From a virus: a stretch of DNA of 24,890 nt. The first letter of the stretch is position 1; every line of letters begins with the position of its first letter. The stretch covers positions 1 through 24,890 of the IMG/VR virus record IMGVR_UViG_3300018420_000108; one strand, written 5' to 3'. Positions 12,186-24,195 of the stretch are shown here, piece by piece. Below the pieces are notes generated by a model. The model was not told where the DNA came from, searched no databases, and worked only from the letters and a program-made list of their open reading frames with translations. The translations under genes and the position numbers were made by a program.

Positions 12186-12224
12186 TTAATACATTTTTGT
12201 AACAATTTGCATCTTTTGTATTAA
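12186..12224 (-). other. AT-rich inverted repeat between cyclase and spanin genes
   Basis: TTAATACA (12186-12193) and TGTATTAA (12217-12224) form a perfect eight-base inverted repeat with a 23-base spacer, containing the smaller palindrome TTGTAACAA (12197-12205). It overlaps the stop codon of the cyclase gene and lies 21 bases upstream of the spanin start. It marks the only real gap between the curli/cyclase insert and the lysis genes. It could be an operator or an AT-rich attenuator; no convincing promoter boxes are visible. Confidence 0.3.
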
Positions 12225-13993
12225 TCTTCCAATAACGTGTAGATTTGCAGCTCTCTTGCTACACCTTTTACTTTGATTGGTGGTAGCTCTTTGCATATGT
12301 GATCCGACTTCAAAGCTGTGGATCTGCCAATGATTAGATCTACGCCAACTTCTTTACAGCTGGATTCTAGCCTTGCAGCTTCATTAACCGGACTGCCAAT
12401 ACAAGTATAATCAAAACGTGTGTCGGATCCCATATTTCCAACGATTGCTTCTCCGGAGTTTATTCCTATACCTATTGATACCGGAGGTAAATCTAAATCA
12501 ATCAACTCCAGGTTCAGTTTATCCATGTTCTTTCTCATTTGTATTGCACAATCTATTGCTGCGTTCTCGTGTCTTTTAAGTTCTAAAGGAGCTGAAAACA
12601 CTGCCATCAAGGCATCGCCGATAAATTTATCTACCATGCCCCCAAATTTTTTGACAGCTTCTACTTGGGCCGTTAAAGCTCGATTCATAATATAGGTTAC
12701 ATCTTCTGCGGACATAGATTCTGACATGGATGTAAAACCTCGGACGTCAGTGAAAAGCACTGTAATATACCGCCTGGATCCTCCGAGCTTGAGTAAATCC
12801 GGATTGTCCTGGAGCTCTTTTACTTGGCGTGGATCTAAATAATGTTCAAATTGCTTTTTGATCTGCTGTCTTAATATGTATTCTTCTCGGTATTTCAAAT
12901 AATACGACGTGCTGCCTATGATAAATTGGCTAATCAATGACCAAGTAACATCCAACAATAAACCATCTTGTATGGTGTAATAGCCAAACGTGGCCACAGA
13001 GCCGGCCGATATGCCAAAGTATATCAATCCTACAGTCATGCTTAATTTTTGCGTCAGAAACCACGAGAGAAGCGCTAAAAGCATGAATATTGCTAACTCA
13101 GCTCCCAGGTGCCACTCAGGGATCCTGGGCGAGTCCTGGATTAATATTGACTCTGCTACAGCTGCTTGCAGAAAGTGTGGGTACATCAAACCTTTGCTAG
13201 TAGGCACTTGAGGCATAATCCCGCCACCGGAAGTTCCTATTATGGTTATTTTGTCTTTGGCCCCGGATAAATCGTCTAAGGTAATAACTGGTGTATTAAC
13301 ATAAGAGATCCATTTTCTGTGTGCTGAATCTACAGATATAGGTGGCAGTGATGGCACTCGTATCTCACCATCACTCATATTTATAATATAAGTGTCTTCT
13401 CCTGTAAGTTGTTTAAGGATCTCTATAGGAAAGCTAGGCGCAAAACCTGTTTCTGTACGCAACAACAAAGGATATTGTCTTACTAGGCCATCAACATCTG
13501 TAGGAGCGGATGCCACCCCCTGAGAGGCATTTGCTTTGAGTATATCGATGTTTTCTACAACACCCCTGGCCTCATATCCTCCTCCTGTATCTTCTCCTAG
13601 AATTACTGTACCGACTGTTGGAGGGTAGTTACCTGTATCAGATTCAAACATAGCTAGGACAGAAGGCCCATAACTCAAGGCTTCTGCAAAGGCTTCGTCT
13701 CCCCCTAATCTATCCGGTTGTGGGAAGGTGAGGGCCCAGGCTTGTGAATAACTACCCGCATTGAGTAGATCTACCTGAATCTCTGCCAATCTTCTCCTGG
13801 GTAATGGCCAGCCACCTTCTTTTTCTATATCAGCTTCGGTTATGTCCAGGATAACAAAATTACCTGTAGGCTCTTGTTCTTTTACAAAAGCATCAAACGT
13901 CTTGAGCTTTAGGATCTCTAAAGGTGTGAGCTGCATCAATAAAGGTAAAGCTAAACCAATGAGTAAAGCTGGGAATATGTATTTTTTATTCAA
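12221..13993 (-). CDS. CHASE2-domain transmembrane class III adenylate cyclase
   Basis: This 590-residue membrane enzyme should make cAMP from ATP. Order of parts: membrane anchor (5-24); extracytoplasmic CHASE2 sensor (about 28-285, with FVILDITEADIEKEGGWPLP and the IIGTSGG segment); three membrane segments (about 297-362); short linker; cyclase domain (405-590). Catalytic residues are all present: metal-binding Asp416 (FTDVRGFT) and Asp460 (IGDALMAVF), substrate Lys456 and Thr530, transition-state Asn537 and Arg541. Lys with Thr is the class IIIb adenylate pattern. The start is TTG with AAGGAAA upstream, overlapping the FecR stop. Such CHASE2 cyclases are bacterial; finding one among phage lysis genes is unusual and suggests transfer from a host. 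Confidence 0.9.
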   Translation of the reverse strand: MNKKYIFPALLIGLALPLLMQLTPLEILKLKTFDAFVKEQEPTGNFVILDITEADIEKEGGWPLPRRRLAEIQVDLLNAGSYSQAWALTFPQPDRLGGDEAFAEALSYGPSVLAMFESDTGNYPPTVGTVILGEDTGGGYEARGVVENIDILKANASQGVASAPTDVDGLVRQYPLLLRTETGFAPSFPIEILKQLTGEDTYIINMSDGEIRVPSLPPISVDSAHRKWISYVNTPVITLDDLSGAKDKITIIGTSGGGIMPQVPTSKGLMYPHFLQAAVAESILIQDSPRIPEWHLGAELAIFMLLALLSWFLTQKLSMTVGLIYFGISAGSVATFGYYTIQDGLLLDVTWSLISQFIIGSTSYYLKYREEYILRQQIKKQFEHYLDPRQVKELQDNPDLLKLGGSRRYITVLFTDVRGFTSMSESMSAEDVTYIMNRALTAQVEAVKKFGGMVDKFIGDALMAVFSAPLELKRHENAAIDCAIQMRKNMDKLNLELIDLDLPPVSIGIGINSGEAIVGNMGSDTRFDYTCIGSPVNEAARLESSCKEVGVDLIIGRSTALKSDHICKELPPIKVKGVARELQIYTLLED

Positions 13994-15105
13994 TTTCCTT
14001 GCCTAATAGTTATAACATTGGAGGATCCGCCATTTACTTTGATAACGTGTTCTACCCCATTTTGAAACAATATAAGAGTGTATGCGCTAGATCCATCTAA
14101 GTCTAGGCGATAGGTGTCTCCTACAGATCTACGAATACTGACCTGTTGGCCCGTAATTATGGTTGTGATCTGTGTGTCTTTGTCCTGGCCTATGTTTGTC
14201 CCGGCTATAGTAATACCGGTTGCTATTTGATTGAGTTGATCTTCCTCTTCGTCTATAGCAAGCGCGTCAATCACATTCAAAAGATCTTCTAAGAAGTTTA
14301 CATCTAAATAATTAATATCCAACTCGGTAAACTCTAAATCCGCCTCGTTATCCAAGAAGTCCTCAGCTAAGAAATCTATATCAAGATCTGAAAATTCTAA
14401 ATAATCTGCTGTGCCCTGTTGTTGTGTTTCTTCTACAATATTCTCGCGTTCTTGCGGAGGATTTACAATAAGCATGTTGTCTATAAATTCTAGTGATATG
14501 TCTAATGTGACAGGTTTGGATGGAGCCTGGTTGTAAGTCATGGCTGTGGTTGCTTGATATGCTTGGTTTAGTATGACTTGGCCCATAGCCGTCTCTACCA
14601 CTATCTCTCCTACTTTGCCATCAGCACCAGGCAAAAGAATAACCAACGAAGATCCCGTTTCCGGAGTGGTAGTGATTGTAAAGTCTGTTCCACGCACATA
14701 AACGTCAGCACTTGGCGTCTGTATGCGTATTTTCTTTTTGTTGTTAAATTTACCTGTAACGAAACGAGCTGTGCCAGATGCGAAACGTAAAGCCATTTCG
14801 CTCTTGGCTGGGTTTGGATCGTAAATGTAGCTGTTGATAACTAATTTGCTATGGTCCATCACACGGACAACTGTTTCATCCTCAAAGGTTATGGCCACAG
14901 CTCCAGATTGAGTTTTAACATTATCTAACTGTTGTATAGGAAAAGCTAACTCCGCCCCGTAAGGCTGATCCCTAACTACCTGAGCGTTACCTCTAAGCTC
15001 GCTTATGGAGCCAATATCAACAACCGGTGCTTGTGCCCTGATCGTTTTGGACCACACAAACAGTTGAAGTAGAAGTACCAGAACTAAGAATCTTGAGCCA
15101 GTCAT
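13990..15105 (-). CDS. FecR-domain periplasmic protein with acidic tandem repeat
   Basis: The 371-residue protein carries a signal peptide (to about residue 26, cleavage after AQA) and a FecR domain (about 30-195): GSISELRGNAQVVRD, ELAFPIQQLDNVKTQSGA, ITFEDETVVRVMDHSKL and TPSADVYVRGTDFTI. Residues 235-277 are a very acidic tandem duplication (LEFSDLDIDFLAEDFLDNEA, then LEFTELDINYLDVNFLEDLL). The last 13 residues (GGSSNVITIRQGN) look like one curlin repeat. FecR proteins are periplasmic sensors or scaffolds; in bacteria they often neighbour CHASE2 cyclases. The ATG lies 89 bases inside the curlin-like gene and has no clear ribosome site, but it is needed for the signal peptide. Confidence 0.8.
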   Translation of the reverse strand: MTGSRFLVLVLLLQLFVWSKTIRAQAPVVDIGSISELRGNAQVVRDQPYGAELAFPIQQLDNVKTQSGAVAITFEDETVVRVMDHSKLVINSYIYDPNPAKSEMALRFASGTARFVTGKFNNKKKIRIQTPSADVYVRGTDFTITTTPETGSSLVILLPGADGKVGEIVVETAMGQVILNQAYQATTAMTYNQAPSKPVTLDISLEFIDNMLIVNPPQERENIVEETQQQGTADYLEFSDLDIDFLAEDFLDNEADLEFTELDINYLDVNFLEDLLNVIDALAIDEEEDQLNQIATGITIAGTNIGQDKDTQITTIITGQQVSIRRSVGDTYRLDLDGSSAYTLILFQNGVEHVIKVNGGSSNVITIRQGN

Positions 15106-15730
15106 TGTCTAAAGTTGATGATTGTGTAATGTTAAAGGTACGATTGGATCCATCGTGATCAAGATAAAAATAACCGCCAGCGTAACCTGATCCTGAGTAA
15201 GTAAGCGCATTATCGTTACCATCAATATTGACGTAGTTAGTTGCCGAATCTACGTTTATAGTTGACGTTATGGTATTGCTAGAACCATCGATAATCCAAT
15301 CTAAATCTAACGTGCTTGCCAAAGCTGTTGTAGCCTGGTTTAAAGTGAATGTGTTGCTAGAACCGGTGACGTCCACATTGACATTACTTGAATCTGCTCC
15401 GTAGGTATTCGTTGGATCTACTGACGTGGTAAAAGAGTTCGAGTTGCCGTCAAATTCATAGAAACCCGTGTAAGAATCACCAATGATCTTTCCTAACCAT
15501 TTATTGGAGTCGCCAATCTGATTTATGTCCAAAGTAGCGGCGGTCCCTGAGAACACAAACGCTGATACATCCCCAGCGGTACTGCCAGCACCACCGATTA
15601 TATTGCCTGATCCAAGCTGCTCTAAATCTATGTTTGATTCAGATGCGCCAGATGTTTGATCTATAAATATTTCATTATCAGCTGCAAAAAGCGGTGTTGA
15701 TAAGAACATTAGTAGTAATAGTTTTTTCAT
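15017..15730 (-). CDS. Secreted curlin-like (CsgA/CsgB-type) repeat protein
   Basis: From the ATG at 15730 (GGAGG upstream, ATGA overlap with csgG) the protein has 237 residues and a signal peptide (KKLLLLMFLSTPLFA). The mature part carries degenerate curlin-type units with Gly/Ser-x-x-Asn turns: NIDLEQLGSGN (33-43), TLDINQIGDSNKW (67-79), SSNTFTLNQAT (124-134), SSNTITSTIN (150-159), GNDNALTYSG (171-180) and GSNRTFNITQSS (194-205). The C-terminus CVVQNDQGTSTGC holds the only two Cys residues of the mature chain. It is the likely cargo of the neighbouring CsgG pore. Repeats are less regular than in CsgA, so amyloid formation is not certain. Confidence 0.75.
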   Translation of the reverse strand: MKKLLLLMFLSTPLFAADNEIFIDQTSGASESNIDLEQLGSGNIIGGAGSTAGDVSAFVFSGTAATLDINQIGDSNKWLGKIIGDSYTGFYEFDGNSNSFTTSVDPTNTYGADSSNVNVDVTGSSNTFTLNQATTALASTLDLDWIIDGSSNTITSTINVDSATNYVNIDGNDNALTYSGSGYAGGYFYLDHDGSNRTFNITQSSTLDNDWLKILSSGTSTSTVCVVQNDQGTSTGC

Positions 15731-16518
15731 TCTTTGTACCTCCAATACCCTAATGAAATGCCTTGGTCTATAATATCTTTTACAGCTGTCTCCAGACACA
15801 TCTGGAGAGCCACAGACATAGGCTCATTTTTTACTGCACCACCTTCTAATTCCACTAACTCCGTATTGTCGCTAATGAATCTAAAGACATCGTTGTTAAG
15901 CGATGCCGATAAAACTTTTTTTGTCGTCATAGTCTCTATGAGTACACGTCCTGTACTAACAGACACTAAGCGCAAACTTACTGTAATAATATCTTCACGA
16001 TAACTTTTATCGGTTCCGATACCAAGAAATCTTGCTCCCGCCCCCCCAGAGCTATTATTAGCTGAGTACGATAACACGCCCCCAGAAATCACTTGGTCTG
16101 CGAAAACGAGAGGCATGAGCTTTTGATCTTCGTCAAACGTATCGCGAGTAGAGCGTATAAGCTGCCTTTCTTTGGATACCGCTTCTAAGGCAACGCGTTC
16201 TACAGTTTCAAAGAAGCCAGAGTGTTTCAAAACGCGTATTAAATAAGCATGTGGCGCTTGAGTTATAGCTGTACTAAAAGTTGCATAGGTAGAGTTACTA
16301 CGTCGTTGTCCTGTTTCATCTTTGAAAGCATTGGGATAAACCGCTATAACTGGCTTTCTTACGGGTTCTGGTATGTCTGCTAAATCAGTATATAAAACCA
16401 CCAACTCTGGTTGTTCATACTTTTTTATCGGGGCAATGTTGTTTTCTATGGGATCAATCATTAGAGTACAACCGCTAAAAAGTAAAGCCGTTGAGAGGCA
16501 CAATAACCTCCGTAACAT
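15727..16518 (-). CDS. csgG: CsgG, curli-type outer-membrane secretion channel lipoprotein
   Basis: I choose the ATG at 16518 (263 residues), which has GAGGG four bases upstream and puts the lipobox LFSGC at residues 13-17; a longer frame to 16557 is possible. CsgG signatures run through the whole chain: KPVIAVYPNAFKDETGQRR (55-73), FSTAITQ (81-87), ERQLIRSTRD (117-126), ADQVISGGVLSYSANNSSGG AGARFLGIGTD (140-170), VSLRLVSVSTGRVLIE (180-195), VFRF (211-214) and NEPMSVALQMCLETAVKDII (231-250). The constriction-loop stretch keeps Phe81 but has Thr80 where E. coli has Asn55. E. coli CsgG forms a nonameric pore that exports curlins. It overlaps csgF by 44 bases. Confidence 0.92.
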   Translation of the reverse strand: MLRRLLCLSTALLFSGCTLMIDPIENNIAPIKKYEQPELVVLYTDLADIPEPVRKPVIAVYPNAFKDETGQRRSNSTYATFSTAITQAPHAYLIRVLKHSGFFETVERVALEAVSKERQLIRSTRDTFDEDQKLMPLVFADQVISGGVLSYSANNSSGGAGARFLGIGTDKSYREDIITVSLRLVSVSTGRVLIETMTTKKVLSASLNNDVFRFISDNTELVELEGGAVKNEPMSVALQMCLETAVKDIIDQGISLGYWRYKE

Positions 16519-16918
16519 TTCCCTCGGCATCTGTGATTGTAACTCTGACTGTTTCATCCGTTATTTCGTATTCTATAGTATTACCATCTAGCTCCATGGA
16601 GCCAAACTTGTTAGGGGTATCGCCAAACAAAGAAGACTCTATTTGTCTTGCTAAGTTTGCATAGATCCTGGAGGTTAGGTTACGCATAAAGCGAGCCTCA
16701 ACTGTATTTGTCTTGTCCCGTTCTAGCTTCTCAGCTAGGGCGGCAATCTCGTCCTTGATCGCTTGGGCCCGGTTTGTCTCTTGATTCTCAATAGTCAAAT
16801 AATGTGAAGACGTGCCGACGCCACTAAAGGAAGGACTCTTAAATTTGTGCACCATTTCGTCTGCTAGTAAGAACGGCGTAACAAATAAAAATGCACTAAG
16901 AGCTATTGTCTTTTTCAT
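16475..16918 (-). CDS. csgF: CsgF, curli assembly factor / CsgG partner
   Basis: The 147-residue protein has a signal peptide (KKTIALSAFLFVTPFLLA) followed by VHKFKSPSFSGVGTSSHYLT, matching the mature CsgF N-terminus, which has the form F-x-(N/S)-P-x-F-x-G and plugs into the CsgG pore. A helical middle (AQAIKDEIAALAEKLERD, LTSRIYANLARQIESSLFG) and a C-terminal beta sheet (GNTIEYEITDETVRVTITDAEG, VTEVIVPLNGF) also follow the CsgF plan, including the tail TEVIVP. AGGAG precedes the ATG. It overlaps the upstream small membrane gene by 23 bases. In bacteria CsgF couples secretion to surface nucleation. Confidence 0.88.
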   Translation of the reverse strand: MKKTIALSAFLFVTPFLLADEMVHKFKSPSFSGVGTSSHYLTIENQETNRAQAIKDEIAALAEKLERDKTNTVEARFMRNLTSRIYANLARQIESSLFGDTPNKFGSMELDGNTIEYEITDETVRVTITDAEGNVTEVIVPLNGFTF

Positions 16919-18709: not shown

Positions 18710-20638
18710 TTACCCTTCTAAGGTTGTTACCCTTGCTTCTAATTCTTGTAACGCTTTAGTAAGCAAAGGTGTTAATTTACCATAATCCATTCCTTGCAGT
18801 GTGTCTCCATCTTTTTCGCCAAATACAGTATGAGGAACTATGCTTGAAACTTCGTGCGCTAAGAAACCCTCTTCGAGTGTGTTGGTTTCATCATCTATCC
18901 AGTTATATCTGACTGGTTTTAATTGTTTCAATCGTGTGGTAGCATCCCATGTATATTCTACATTTTCTTTTCGGCGATAATCTGACGTAGTAACATAAGA
19001 AGTAGCTGTAGTTGTTACTACTCTTCCTCTGGTTACACCATCTTTACCAAATAATATTTGGTCTATTGATGCGGTATCATCTCTATTTAAATTAATATAT
19101 CCACGACTAAGTTCTGTAGAATTTGCATCAACAGGAACGCTTGGACCAGAATTAGAAGTAACTCCCATCAGAAGATTACCAGTAGAGTCAATCCTTAATC
19201 TTTCACTATTATTTACAAGAAAACGCACATAATTATCTGTTTTTACTTGCATAGCCCAATTGCCATCTGCATCTAAGAAACCAATCTCACTAGCTTCTGC
19301 ATAAAGATAACCATCTATGTTGCCACTACTGTCCATCATTTTAAATTGATTGGAGTTAGCGTCTGGTCCTCTAAACTCAAAATGTTGACCTGATTGAACT
19401 TTAAATCTATTTATGCCATCAACACCTATGTAGTAGATATTATCGTCAGTATCGTAAAGGTTATAACCTACTTGCGTTCCACTAATATTATGATAAATAA
19501 CACCTGCGTTGCTATCAGACTGACCTGCTTCTAATATTAAATAGGTATCACCACTTGTAGGTTTAATGTGTAAAGGACCATCAGGACTCGCAGTTCCTAT
19601 ACCAACCCTATCATTACCACCATCAACGAACAACATATTAGCGTTGCCATTTGACTCGACTCTGAAGTCTACGTCTACTGAATCATCATTAAAGACAGCC
19701 TCGCCTTCGTTAAACTCAAGCCTATTGCGAGCAGTACCAGCTACCATTGTTTTTAGTGTTAATTGTGCATCTTCTGTGCCATCAGAAGCATCTCTTATTC
19801 TTGTTAATATTTGTCCGTAAATTACATCTTGAGAGTTGTCATTTCTTCCCTCAAATTGTATTTCTCCTAAGAAATCATCATCGGCTGGTGAACCAGAATT
19901 TCTATACATCCTAAGATTAGGTCCAACACTAGCATCTGCATCAGTAGTTGTAAGAGTTAAATTGTCGGTGTTATCTGCTAATGTAATTGTTGCGCCAGCA
20001 GAAGAAGTTATAGCACCATCTACTTGTAGTGTAGAAGCCATATCAACCGCACCATCTATATCTACTACATCTAGGTTAGTTGTTCCGTCTACGTCAATAT
20101 CGCCAGATATATCAAGAGAAGTAGCTGTTAAAACACCTGTAACACCCAAAGTACCACCAATAGTTGCATCATCTGTTACTGTTAGATCGTCTTGTACTTT
20201 TAAATCTACGACATTTAAACTTGCAAAAGCATCAGTAACTGCTGCTCCACTACCAGCACCATCTAAGTAAACCGCTTTTACATCGCCAGCTGGTATGGTT
20301 ACGTTAGCGCCAGTGCCTTGTGAAATTATTATATTTTGAGATCCACTCGTGCCGTTTTCAATAAAGTGCATCCTACTCATCGTGTTCGGTGCAATCGTAA
20401 TCGTACAAGCCGAGTCTAGTGTGCCTGTATATTTGATATACATAGCTCTACCAGGATCCGTAGATCCATCGGCTACAGTTGTGGTGTGTGTGTCTGCATT
20501 GGTGGTTATTGCCTCGGTTCCGAAGCCAAGTGCTTCACCAATTAGCTCCAAATTCGTATTTGTCTCAGTACCCCAGGTTCCAGAAGATTCCCCGGTACCA
20601 ATCTCTTTTAGTCTTAAATCATTTACATAAGTTGCCAT
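18710..20638 (-). CDS. Tail fibre/spike with C-terminal S74 chaperone domain
   Basis: This 642-residue protein is a receptor-binding candidate. The first 150 residues (TYVNDLRLKEIGTGESSGTW) attach to the virion; residues about 145-230 are regular beta repeats (LDISGDIDVDGTTNLDVVDI). Middle segments include VGIGTASPDGPLHI, a frequent fibre motif. From about 552 the S74 intramolecular chaperone appears: SDYRRKENV (Ser552, Lys557 as the self-cleavage dyad), LKQLKPVRYNW, GFLAHEVSSIVP and MDYGKLTPLL, ending in a helix (TKALQELEARVTTLEG). The chaperone trimerises the fibre and is then cut off. A GATC-free tract covering residues 152-642 hints at a different history from neighbouring genes. Confidence 0.88.
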   Translation of the reverse strand: MATYVNDLRLKEIGTGESSGTWGTETNTNLELIGEALGFGTEAITTNADTHTTTVADGSTDPGRAMYIKYTGTLDSACTITIAPNTMSRMHFIENGTSGSQNIIISQGTGANVTIPAGDVKAVYLDGAGSGAAVTDAFASLNVVDLKVQDDLTVTDDATIGGTLGVTGVLTATSLDISGDIDVDGTTNLDVVDIDGAVDMASTLQVDGAITSSAGATITLADNTDNLTLTTTDADASVGPNLRMYRNSGSPADDDFLGEIQFEGRNDNSQDVIYGQILTRIRDASDGTEDAQLTLKTMVAGTARNRLEFNEGEAVFNDDSVDVDFRVESNGNANMLFVDGGNDRVGIGTASPDGPLHIKPTSGDTYLILEAGQSDSNAGVIYHNISGTQVGYNLYDTDDNIYYIGVDGINRFKVQSGQHFEFRGPDANSNQFKMMDSSGNIDGYLYAEASEIGFLDADGNWAMQVKTDNYVRFLVNNSERLRIDSTGNLLMGVTSNSGPSVPVDANSTELSRGYINLNRDDTASIDQILFGKDGVTRGRVVTTTATSYVTTSDYRRKENVEYTWDATTRLKQLKPVRYNWIDDETNTLEEGFLAHEVSSIVPHTVFGEKDGDTLQGMDYGKLTPLLTKALQELEARVTTLEG

Positions 20639-20653
20639 ATTTCATGTCCTCTT

Positions 20654-21370
20654 TTATGCTGCGTCTCTACCGCCTTTAATTGTAGTATAGTTTGGTGTTT
20701 GAGTTGTTGCAACGTCTGAAAAACTCGGAGTCTGTGTCGTCGTAACATCGCTGTAGTTAGGTGTTTGGTCTGTATCTATCTCTCCATAAACTAAAATCGA
20801 GGCAATACTAACAGTTACGCTTTGTCCGGTTGGCACCACATTCGCTTTTGCGACAGTAGATACAGAGCCTAAAGCGCTCGTAACCGCAAAAGACGGCAAG
20901 TTAATTACTTCGTTTTCATGGACTATAACTGAGCCAATCGCTGAGGTAATAGATCTACCTGTTAATGTTAGATTAGCCTCTGCATCTATAGCTGGAGATC
21001 CTAAGCCAGATGTTATTGCGAGAGTAGTAGGCGTTACATTCGCCTCTGCATCTGTGCTTGGTGCGCCTAGGCCAGATGTTACGGCTCTACCTGTAAGCGT
21101 GACGTTAGCTTCGGCATCTACGTTAGGTGAACCTAAACCAGATGTTATAGCCTGTGTGGCGGGTACTACGTTAGCTTTTGCTACTACTGATACTGTTCCA
21201 AGAGAGCTTGTAACAGAAAATCCAGTTGTTGTGGCTATTGCGCCAGCTGCTACTGTTACTGTGCCCAGGCCAGATGTTATCGCACCGACGCTGCTTAGAT
21301 TTAATGGTAGTTCCGTGCCCCAAGCACCTTCGTCCCAGGCGCCACGTCCCCACCCATTAATTATTGCCAT
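20654..21370 (-). CDS. Repeat protein with eight 22-residue units, putative tail/virion protein
   Basis: The 238-residue protein starts with a Trp/Gly-rich block (IINGWGRGAWDEGAWGTELP), then about eight tandem units of 22 residues with consensus AITSGLGSP-VDAEANVTLTGR (about 27-195), and ends in three shorter units around TQTPNYSDVTT (about 200-228). The NGWGRG...WG start occurs, from memory, in structural proteins of uncultured marine phages. Lying between a polyvalent protein and the tail fibre, it is probably a tail or fibre-associated protein. Beta-rich repeats suggest an elongated stalk. ATG overlaps the preceding stop. Confidence 0.65.
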   Translation of the reverse strand: MAIINGWGRGAWDEGAWGTELPLNLSSVGAITSGLGTVTVAAGAIATTTGFSVTSSLGTVSVVAKANVVPATQAITSGLGSPNVDAEANVTLTGRAVTSGLGAPSTDAEANVTPTTLAITSGLGSPAIDAEANLTLTGRSITSAIGSVIVHENEVINLPSFAVTSALGSVSTVAKANVVPTGQSVTVSIASILVYGEIDTDQTPNYSDVTTTQTPSFSDVATTQTPNYTTIKGGRDAA

Positions 21371-21512: not shown

Positions 21513-23375
21513 TTATTCTACCTCAAATATATCTACCGCTTTGCGGTTGTAATGATTTGTAAATTTTTGTAAACTAGAGTCAATGGAAACATTATATTTT
21601 ACATGGGAAGAAGGACCAGCTGTTTTAGATCCGGTTGGTGACGAAGACTTCGGATATTTTATTTCTCCAGGTAATACTGACTGGACATTAGCAACACCTA
21701 GCCAGGTAGCTGATTTCTTTGTTGACGGCTCGAAAATGTCTAAGACAGATTTCGTAAAGAAGTTTGGAGAGATCGGTAAAGATCTTCCAGAACTACCAGC
21801 TGTAACGTAACCCCCCTCAGCAAACTTTTTAACGTCTGTTTTAGAGCTTCTTTTTGTAATTTTAATAATACTGTCGTCTGGCACCACCATATTTGCAGAG
21901 CCGTCTGCTTCACTAAATATTTTACCGCCGTAAGGCAGTTTTTTTGGTGAGATGTACTCGTAAAATTTGACTCCATCTGGATCATTGAAACTTTTAGCTA
22001 TCGGTCCGCTCTGAAAAAAACTATCTATTTCTTTGCCTGTTGGATCTTTTTTTACAAAATCATCTGGCAATATTTTTTTTAATTCTTTTCTCAAAGTAGG
22101 ATGTTGTCTGCTGAAAGGTTCGGCCACTCTTAACAGTTTGTCACTAGGTACTTCTACCTTGTAGACGAAACCATCGTCACCCGCGTAGCTTGCAGTAGTT
22201 TTTTTGCCCTCTATGTTTCTGGCCGTAAAATAATGACCTCTACCATATCGATCTAGGCTTTTTGGTAAACCAAATTCATCTAGTGGTCTTTGAGTCATGT
22301 CAAATTTTTCAAATTTTGCTGGACTACCATGTAATCCCGATATGCCCTTGCCTGTGAAATAAAAATCTGGATCTATCTGGTCCTTTGCGTTTTTAAATAT
22401 AACCGCCATTTCATCTTGTAATTGTTCGCCCTCTAGCCTTATCTTTCTACCTATTTTACCGAGCTCTGTAGGATCTGTGGGCATGCCTTGTGGGAATAAA
22501 GATCTAAACTTTTCGTATTTTTTGTGTGCTTGATCGCCAGCTCGCCACATTGGAGCTGTAATTATTCCTACTTCTGCAACTAATTTTTCGCCGTTTGATC
22601 CTGTAAATTTAAGATTTATTTTGCGATCAACAAATCCTGTGCCTGGTTTAATGTCCCGGCCCTTATCGAAAACATCGTATCTTTGTCCTATGAATTTTGC
22701 TACAGCCTCTTCCTCGGCTGGTGTATTGACTACAATCCTGGTCCTTATAGGATCTGTGATTTGCGACATATCACCCTGGTATTTGTCCCTGGCTTTTTCC
22801 ACCATCCTTGGTATTTTCTTGGTGGTGCCGACGGGTAACATTGTATCGCTATCAATCTTTATGCCGAACTCTGGCAATGTGGTTTCCAGGTTAAACTCTT
22901 TGGCTATATCATCCATCTGCGTTTTAAACTCTGGACCAATCCTAAGCGCTCTGTCGTACATTTTGTTTGCGTCAGCTACCGGGTTTCCGGTAAATAGATC
23001 TTCTTGGTGCCTGGTCAAACCATAGCGGGGATCTTTGGGTAGGCTGCTTATGCCTCCTGGTTCTGTCTTAGTCTTAACCATTTGTTTCAAGACAGACTTA
23101 GGGCCCCTAGCAAGATCTCCAATCAATGGTATCGCACCCAAGCCAGACAAGGCGGCGATTCCCAAATTAGCTCCGCCTTGTCCTACTCGACCTTGGGTAA
23201 AGTCTCGAACCGCGTCGCGGCCGTATTTGGTAGCCGCTGCAACATCCGCAGCCATGCCTGGAGGGGTAAAACCAGCTGCTATCTGTGCTACTAGCGGTAC
23301 GTTTTCTTCATAACCTGTAACCGCCACATCGAGGAGATCTGGTTCAAACACATTGATGTTATTTTGGCTCGCCAT
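21513..23375 (-). CDS. Polyvalent protein: RelA/SpoT-like plus ADP-ribosyltransferase-like domains
   Basis: The 620-residue protein looks like a multi-domain polyvalent protein that may enter the cell with the DNA. Residues 30-100 are Ala/Gly-rich with weak hydrophobic segments (VPLVAQIAAGFTPPGMAADV, LGIAALSGLGAIPLIGD). Residues about 145-295 follow the RelA/SpoT nucleotidyltransferase pattern: DPIRTRIVV (208-216), a middle strand VDRKINLKF, and EVGIITAPMWRAGDQAHKKY (268-287) in place of the usual E-Q-(I/V)-R/K-T and A--H--Y. Residues about 345-510 follow phage-type ADP-ribosyltransferases: GLHGSP (His349), YGRGHYFTA (Tyr382), VYKVEVP and NMVVPDDSIIKI (495-506). Related phrases VFEP, DIFEP and DIFEVE recur at 9-12, 546-550 and 615-620. 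Ribosome site is very weak. Confidence 0.65.
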   Translation of the reverse strand: MASQNNINVFEPDLLDVAVTGYEENVPLVAQIAAGFTPPGMAADVAAATKYGRDAVRDFTQGRVGQGGANLGIAALSGLGAIPLIGDLARGPKSVLKQMVKTKTEPGGISSLPKDPRYGLTRHQEDLFTGNPVADANKMYDRALRIGPEFKTQMDDIAKEFNLETTLPEFGIKIDSDTMLPVGTTKKIPRMVEKARDKYQGDMSQITDPIRTRIVVNTPAEEEAVAKFIGQRYDVFDKGRDIKPGTGFVDRKINLKFTGSNGEKLVAEVGIITAPMWRAGDQAHKKYEKFRSLFPQGMPTDPTELGKIGRKIRLEGEQLQDEMAVIFKNAKDQIDPDFYFTGKGISGLHGSPAKFEKFDMTQRPLDEFGLPKSLDRYGRGHYFTARNIEGKKTTASYAGDDGFVYKVEVPSDKLLRVAEPFSRQHPTLRKELKKILPDDFVKKDPTGKEIDSFFQSGPIAKSFNDPDGVKFYEYISPKKLPYGGKIFSEADGSANMVVPDDSIIKITKRSSKTDVKKFAEGGYVTAGSSGRSLPISPNFFTKSVLDIFEPSTKKSATWLGVANVQSVLPGEIKYPKSSSPTGSKTAGPSSHVKYNVSIDSSLQKFTNHYNRKAVDIFEVE

Positions 23376-23406: not shown

Positions 23407-24195
23407 CTATTCGTGTAGTCCCTGGAACTTTCTTTTTATAATTCTGTGAACTTTGTGATACGGGAAATCCTCGAATCCAGGAAACCTGTTTTGTATCTGA
23501 GTGGCTATCCTTCTAGCACCCAAGCCTTGTTCTCTAGCAGCTTTGATGAACTTGAGAACCTCTTGTTCTGCCGGAACCGGAATTAGCTTGGTTCTTCTTC
23601 TACTACCGGAGTTGTCGTACTCTTTTGTGTAACCAAAAGGAACATGGCCACCGATTGAGTAACCTTTTTCCGCGTAAACAATCTTGCCGCCGTTTAGCCT
23701 GGACATAATCATTTCTCTCTCAATCTCCGCAAACTGAGCCATGTTTGTAATGAGTTGTTGGTTGGCCATCCTGGTCATGTCCATCTTTGCCTCCAGGCCA
23801 GTCTTTTCTTTTTCCCTGGGTAGGACCACCGGTATGTCTGCAAACATATCGCAGAAGTAAAGCGTGATCCCGGACTCTTCCAGGGTAGGAATCATGTTGA
23901 CCATTTCCAGGAAGGACCTGGCAAGCCTGTCTAGTTTTGTAACTACTATCACATCATTGGCATCCATGACGTCGGTGAGCTCCCTGGATCCAGGACGTTC
24001 GAGTAATGGTTTCATGCCGCTAATCCCAGCATCAGTGAAGAACTGATCGACCGGTCTGCCGCCATACTTGTTGGCCACAAACTCTTCTATGGATCTCTTT
24101 TGATCTTCAAGCGAAGATCCATCCTTGGCCTGTTGTTCAGATGAAACTCTGATATAGCCGTAGATGTTATTGATTTGTTTTTTGGGTTGTATCAT
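23407..24195 (-). CDS. Serine recombinase (resolvase/invertase/integrase family)
   Basis: The 262-residue protein breaks and rejoins DNA through a serine. Catalytic domain: IYGYIRVSSEQQ (nucleophile Ser18 in RVS), SLEDQKRSIEEFV, FTDAGISGMKPLLERPG (52-68), VVTKLDRLARS (84-94, with Arg90 and Arg93), then a long helix with EIEREMIMSRLNGGKIVYAE (157-176). A short recombinase-type DNA-binding part follows: GGHVPFGYTKE and a helix-turn-helix (GLGARRIATQIQNRF, FPYHKVHRIIKR). It is far shorter than large phage integrases, so it could be an integrase, a resolvase or an invertase; no att site or invertible segment is visible. AAGGAGG precedes the ATG. Confidence 0.85.
   Translation of the reverse strand: MIQPKKQINNIYGYIRVSSEQQAKDGSSLEDQKRSIEEFVANKYGGRPVDQFFTDAGISGMKPLLERPGSRELTDVMDANDVIVVTKLDRLARSFLEMVNMIPTLEESGITLYFCDMFADIPVVLPREKEKTGLEAKMDMTRMANQQLITNMAQFAEIEREMIMSRLNGGKIVYAEKGYSIGGHVPFGYTKEYDNSGSRRRTKLIPVPAEQEVLKFIKAAREQGLGARRIATQIQNRFPGFEDFPYHKVHRIIKRKFQGLHE

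Follow-up and report, generated by a model that had tools for sequence, protein, structure and literature searches.

A marine phage protein combining a RelA/SpoT-like core with an optional ADP-ribosyltransferase cassette, a candidate host-takeover effector

The window analysed here, which is the whole 24,890-nucleotide stretch at positions 1 to 24,890 of the IMG/VR virus record IMGVR_UViG_3300018420_000108, carries on its minus strand a gene for a multidomain protein with a RelA/SpoT-like (RSH-like) domain, followed by an ADP-ribosyltransferase (ART) cassette (Table 1). The order of recombinase, RSH gene, repeat protein and fibre is the same in all 23 loci at which both sides were found. The recombinase adjoins the RSH gene in 22 of these, lying approximately 1.8 kb upstream in the remaining one (L143), and one extra gene precedes the repeat protein in L126. 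With the recombinase and the repeat/fibre pair as the conserved neighbours, no antitoxin or immunity gene adjoins the RSH gene. The terminase of the window phage is closest to that of phage 023Pt_psg01 (62%), then to that of Pelagibacter phage HTVC027P (60%), and the source phage is, judged by its genes, a relative of the HTVC023P-type pelagiphages and related to SAR11 phages. No RSH-like gene was present in the region of HTVC027P that was examined. Elsewhere, at 12221-16918 on the minus strand, the window phage carries a block of curli, FecR and cyclase genes; HTVC023P-type pelagiphages carry T8SS/curli blocks with FecR and cyclase (PMC9599517).

Table 1. Features of the window, given by nucleotide position; residue numbers are those of the 620-residue protein.
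Feature	Position	Strand	Basis or remark
CHASE2 + class III adenylate/guanylate cyclase	12221-13993	-	
FecR	13990-15105	-	
Repeat ORF	15017-15799	-	
CsgG	15727-16557	-	
CsgF	16475-16918	-	
Tail-fibre protein with Peptidase_S74 chaperone	18710-20638	-	conserved second downstream neighbour
Repeat protein	20654-21370	-	conserved downstream neighbour
CDS, 620 aa: N-terminal region, RSH-like domain, ART cassette, C-terminal tail	21513-23375	-	single intact ORF; purifying selection
Conserved C-terminal tail, residues 515-620 (VKKFAxGGYV ... DIFEVE)	21516-21833	-	conservation among relatives
Exchangeable cassette, residues 340-514, flanked by conserved QIDPxFY and VKKFAxGGYV	21834-22358	-	alignments
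ART-PolyVal-like domain, residues 345-509, with H349, Y382, D500	21849-22343	-	profile comparison, alignment
RelA/SpoT (small alarmone synthetase)-like pyrophosphotransferase domain, residues 112-339	22359-23042	-	family profile, model, fold search
E268 codon, Mg ligand equivalent (RelQ E139 / RelP E174)	22572-22574	-	invariant in 28/28
F248 codon, acceptor-base Tyr equivalent (RelQ Y116)	22632-22634	-	Phe in 18/28, Tyr in 10/28
D208 codon, Mg ligand equivalent (RelQ D72 / RelP D107)	22752-22754	-	invariant in 28/28
Gly/Ala-rich helical N-terminal region, residues 1-111	23043-23375	-	kept in close relatives; helices modelled with low confidence
Serine recombinase (resolvase/invertase family)	23407-24195	-	conserved upstream neighbour

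Within the limits given in Table 1, the catalytic core of the RSH-like domain occupies approximately residues 183-295; the original prediction had drawn the two domains at 145-295 and 345-510, near to where we find them. Family-wide, close relatives of the protein are approximately 440-625 residues long. Short motifs of the form Asp/Asn-Ile/Val-Phe occur at residues 6-10 (NINVF), 545-548 (LDIF) and 614-618 (VDIFE), and close relatives keep both these and the VKKFAEGGYV that directly follows the cassette in the window protein.

Searched alone against Pfam, the window protein yields a weak RelA_SpoT match at residues 185-238 (15.7 bits, E = 0.018), against a curated cut-off of 27 bits for this family (PF04607). 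Used alone, it found nothing in PHROGs, NCBIfam or PADLOC, and noise only in the PDB. As a lone match of this strength could arise by chance, the RSH assignment was tested with a homologue family. Relatives were gathered in five rounds of scanning IMG/VR by similarity to the window protein, using no RelA or known ART sequences, and gave an alignment (A9) of 28 sequences with identity down to approximately 30%. In named phages, tblastn of the whole protein returned no match, and searches with the separate domains returned noise (for example, a Streptococcus phage structural protein) together with one useful lead, Alishewanella phages. Two scans of genome contigs revealed no relatives in bacterial genomes or prophages, and no further RSH relative was found in eighty marine phage loci retrieved via the neighbouring fibre gene.

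PF04607 was matched by 21 of the 28 A9 members (best E 1.1e-4), and every other family by three at most; scores of 18.5 bits for the window domain, and of up to 21.6 bits for its relatives, all lie below the 27-bit cut-off. When the A9 profile was compared with all PDB chains, the seven best matches were GTP pyrophosphokinases or Tas1 (E 2.6e-6 to 1.3e-3), with noise beginning at 0.09. AlphaFold2 supplied with A9 modelled residues 112-340 with high scores (pLDDT 91.5, pTM 0.85), and the best Foldseek matches of that model in the PDB were RelP, RelQ, an exported small alarmone synthetase, Tas1 and Rel (E from 3.2e-7), with query TM values mostly between 0.4 and 0.56 for the alarmone synthetases. 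Among predicted viral structures the best matches include large uncultured-phage proteins named DdrB-like or ART-PolyVal-like, as well as proteins named Tas1 and RelA/SpoT. Alarmone synthetases therefore head both the profile search and the structural comparison, and together with the model they bear out the RelA/SpoT-like fold that had been claimed from the letters of the DNA; we assign residues 112-339 a predicted Pol-beta-like RSH fold.

Residues of the active site were mapped by HMMER alignment to B. subtilis RelQ, the tagged chain being renumbered with an inferred offset of 7, which puts Y116 as expected. RelQ D72, E139, R77, K48, K56 and H155 correspond to D208, E268, R213, K186, K194 and H284 of the window protein, each of which is identical in every A9 member covering it. 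Given the roles described for the mapped residues in RelP and RelQ, comprising Mg ligands, adenine stacking, phosphate contacts and a ribose contact (PMC5794853), R213 would be the equivalent of an adenine-stacking arginine, K186 and K194 of the phosphate lysines, and H284 of the ribose histidine. In the ATP-site set of R46, K48, S52, K56, R59, R77 and H155 (RelQ numbering), K48, K56, R77 and H155 are kept and the others are replaced in the alignment: R46, one of two adenine-stacking arginines, by T184; S52, the phosphate serine, by R190; and R59 by D197. Further replacements are S118 by D250, H120 by K252, and Q141 by G270. The guanine-stacking tyrosine of the G-loop, Y116, is F248 in the window protein, and R251, at the position of RelQ Y119, is invariant in the family. 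The original prediction had noted that the usual glutamine and arginine are missing from EVGIITAPM, and had supposed a divergent enzyme; the reading is correct, with Gly270 in place of the glutamine, Ile272 in place of the arginine and the catalytic glutamate (E268) retained, and so is the supposition of divergence. As the most distant members (L157, L159, L160, L163, and L164) retain the glutamine of the E-I/V-Q motif, its loss arose within the lineage of the window protein. Taken together, the donor side is largely conserved and the acceptor side changed. From this pattern we consider it most likely that the enzyme is active and its acceptor altered; a catalytically dead RSH-like domain is possible, given the changed residues.

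On the ART part, the Pfam family PF18760 (ART-PolyVal) falls below its cut-off (E 0.013 for the window, 0.0037 for L003). The IMG/VR sequence L131 matches the window ART by tblastn (E 1e-6), PF18760 at 2.2e-15, and also the ART of the virion RNA polymerase (vRNAP, CBX87992.1) of Roseovarius Plymouth podovirus 1, the prototype of polyvalent ARTs, with an active site of His, Tyr and Asp (PMC5512222). A profile headed by this vRNAP, and including Agrobacterium, Alishewanella and L131 relatives, was aligned with the window family by hhalign at 96.0% (E 4.2e-9, 132 columns), compared with 0.1-0.3% for unrelated control pairings, and an HMM of the same profile matches the window over the full domain (E 2.2e-8). 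H349, Y382 and D500 align with the H-Y-D triad, that is with the histidine of strand 1, the tyrosine of strand 2 and the aspartate of strand 5, where strand positions are those given by alignment. A full-length structure model from 7 sequences reached a pLDDT of 34.9, with low confidence across the ART part. The triad, the HMM and the profile-profile comparison with ART-PolyVal uphold the phage-type ART originally predicted, and indicate membership of the ART-PolyVal / Tox-ART-HYD2 family.

Comparison among relatives revealed three states between the conserved QIDPxFY and VKKFAxGGYV sequences. The ART is present in the window, L001, L002, and L003; a second module of 112 residues, unrelated to the ART, takes its place in L104, L145, and L146; and only a few residues are found in L004, L007, L010, L096, L102, L103, and others. 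L003, with the ART, and L010, without it, are 98% identical over the N-terminal and RSH parts and 99% identical in the tail; likewise, L103 and L104, respectively without and with the second module, are 92% identical. L104 and L145 share 94% identity in the second module but only 53% in the N-terminal and RSH parts. For the window and L003, synonymous divergence amounts to 2.2 over the RSH part compared with 0.9 over the ART and tail; for L104 and L145 the values are 2.2 and, for the 3' half, 0.5. It therefore seems that the 3' half moves as a unit. Presence and absence of the cassette were each seen in several metagenome contigs independently, for which reason an assembly artefact was set aside as the cause. 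The ART is an optional cassette, gained, lost or replaced at one fixed site. The two domains do occur in one phage protein in the order originally predicted, but the ART is not the fixed half of a fusion as which it had been presented.

The second cassette (in L104 5386-7131, L145 1791-3485, and L146 5455-7149) contains LYHRT...IYFST motifs that resemble an ART on visual inspection; it matches only phrog_6170, an uncharacterised PHROG, and nothing in Pfam or the PDB. A conserved module of 87 residues (RQPIEVL...GGKSTLEALE...PVKIF) lies N-terminal to the RSH domain in L105, L126, L153, L154, L155, and L158, and a reading of this module by eye as ParB-like was dropped, as neither Pfam nor the PDB supports it. 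The proteins of L157, L159, L161, and L162 are far longer, at 683-916 residues, and have the RSH-like domain near the C-terminus; that of L159 also matches an acetyltransferase family below threshold (PF00583, E 0.013; 16.2 bits, cut-off 20.7), and at these four loci no recombinase, repeat-protein or fibre neighbour was found. Overall, the RSH domain is combined with the ART or with other modules in arrangements that vary among relatives, as in phage polyvalent proteins.

Nine pairs gave a dN/dS estimate for the RSH part; six of them lie at 0.07-0.12 and the other three at 0.15-0.39, the value of 0.39 for L103 versus L104 reflecting weaker constraint. For the ART the estimates are 0.12-0.14 between the window and its diverged relatives L001 and L003, and 0.39 between L001 and L003 themselves, which are near-identical and differ by very few changes. 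Low values in both parts point to selected function.

We propose that the protein is a small host-takeover effector of the polyvalent type, in which an RSH-like pyrophosphotransferase core, with or without an ART, slows or redirects host growth, and we give this reading a probability of approximately 0.55. Its constant core would most likely move pyrophosphate from ATP to a 3'-hydroxyl, and as the acceptor-side residues are replaced, the acceptor may be other than the classical GDP/GTP, such as an adenine nucleotide or the end of a tRNA. The optional cassette would most likely ADP-ribosylate a host macromolecule. Acting together early in infection, possibly after delivery in the virion, the two domains would retard the growth of the host or redirect it, and the effector would probably serve to reprogramme or poison the host cell.

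The timing of action may differ from this scheme, in that the protein could act late in the infected cell after its synthesis there, being neither packaged nor injected, which would be compatible with either enzymatic reading. No virion signal is known for the protein, and most polyvalent proteins are larger, such that late action is credible at rather less than even odds; against it stand the conserved position of the RSH gene immediately upstream of the tail-fibre genes, and the argument that the polyvalent class is virion-borne (PMC5512222). A different departure from the proposed effector would be an RSH-like domain that is not catalytic, but rather a nucleotide-binding sensor, sponge or scaffold that binds ATP or alarmones, or interferes with host RSH or CapRel-type proteins, leaving the optional ART as the only enzyme. 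The replacement of the R46, S52, R59 and Q141 equivalents tells against an active RSH domain, as does the phenylalanine at F248, since in FaRel2 the same Tyr-to-Phe change at the acceptor-base position perturbs the acceptor and so weakens catalysis (PMC11782079). Nevertheless, down to approximately 30% identity the Mg ligands and the equivalents of K48, K56, R77 and H155 do not vary, which is more than binding by itself would need, and most relatives are without the ART, so the RSH part alone is worth keeping; we regard a non-catalytic domain as unlikely. That the protein is a structural or internal component of the virion, with both enzyme folds as relics devoid of enzymatic role, would suit its location beside tail genes and the loss of the ART without loss of the rest, but is highly improbable given that purifying selection preserves active-site residues in both folds.

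Returning to an enzymatic effector, a more specific version can be put forward tentatively, whereby a pyrophosphotransferase of novel acceptor specificity, to which the invariant arginine at the RelQ Y119 position may relate, forms a constant platform on which the ART and other cassettes replace one another at a single site, in the manner of polymorphic toxins, and which the phage makes against its host or against rival phages. Marine phages that infect SAR11-type bacteria rank among the most numerous in the ocean, and little is known of the proteins with which this group takes over its hosts. With approximately 30 homologues in which the fold is clear and the candidate catalytic residues do not vary, some carrying the ART in nature and others lacking it, what each domain contributes can be tested directly, and the natural split between Phe and Tyr at the acceptor-base position offers a ready comparison for what such synthetases modify.

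The protein shares with RelQ/YjbM and RelP/YwaC the fold, the Mg ligands and the K48, K56, R77 and H155 equivalents, but departs from them in the replacement of the R46, S52, Q141, S118 and H120 equivalents, in the phenylalanine at Y116 and arginine (R251) at Y119, and in the fusion of its RSH domain into a multidomain phage protein. With Tas1, which is among the PDB profile and fold matches, and with the toxSAS enzymes FaRel2 and CapRel, it would share the use of an RSH fold as a conflict effector, as proposed here; unlike them, it has no adjoining antitoxin or immunity gene, and its acceptor loop differs. The vRNAP of Roseovarius Plymouth podovirus 1 (CBX87992.1) has an ART of the same family, by a chain of matches and by profile comparison, with the same H-Y-D residues, but there the ART is part of a virion RNA polymerase, whereas in the window protein it is an insertion that an RSH protein can do without. 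Phage polyvalent proteins with ART and RelA/SpoT domains have already been reported (Iyer et al., 2017, PMC5512222), a prior description that, along with the optional status of the cassette, escaped the original prediction, which was otherwise right as to folds, order and phage setting. An uncultured-phage protein listed in UniProt as 'ART-PolyVal-like domain-containing protein' (A0A6J5MFM5) contains a region with the RSH fold (Foldseek E 7.9e-8), and the pairing of RSH and ART is therefore probably not unprecedented; that protein differs in its length of 981 residues, and is 24% identical over the aligned part. The polyvalent proteins (PMC5512222) likewise join an RSH-type nucleotidyltransferase to Tox-ART-HYD2 (ART-PolyVal) in phage proteins with modules mixed among relatives; relative to these, the window family is shorter, has one constant RSH core with its own active-site substitutions and a single exchange site, and belongs to SAR11-type marine phages. 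The novel elements are the pelagiphage lineage, an active site peculiar to this family, and exchange at one fixed site, for which natural pairs of proteins with and without a cassette exist.
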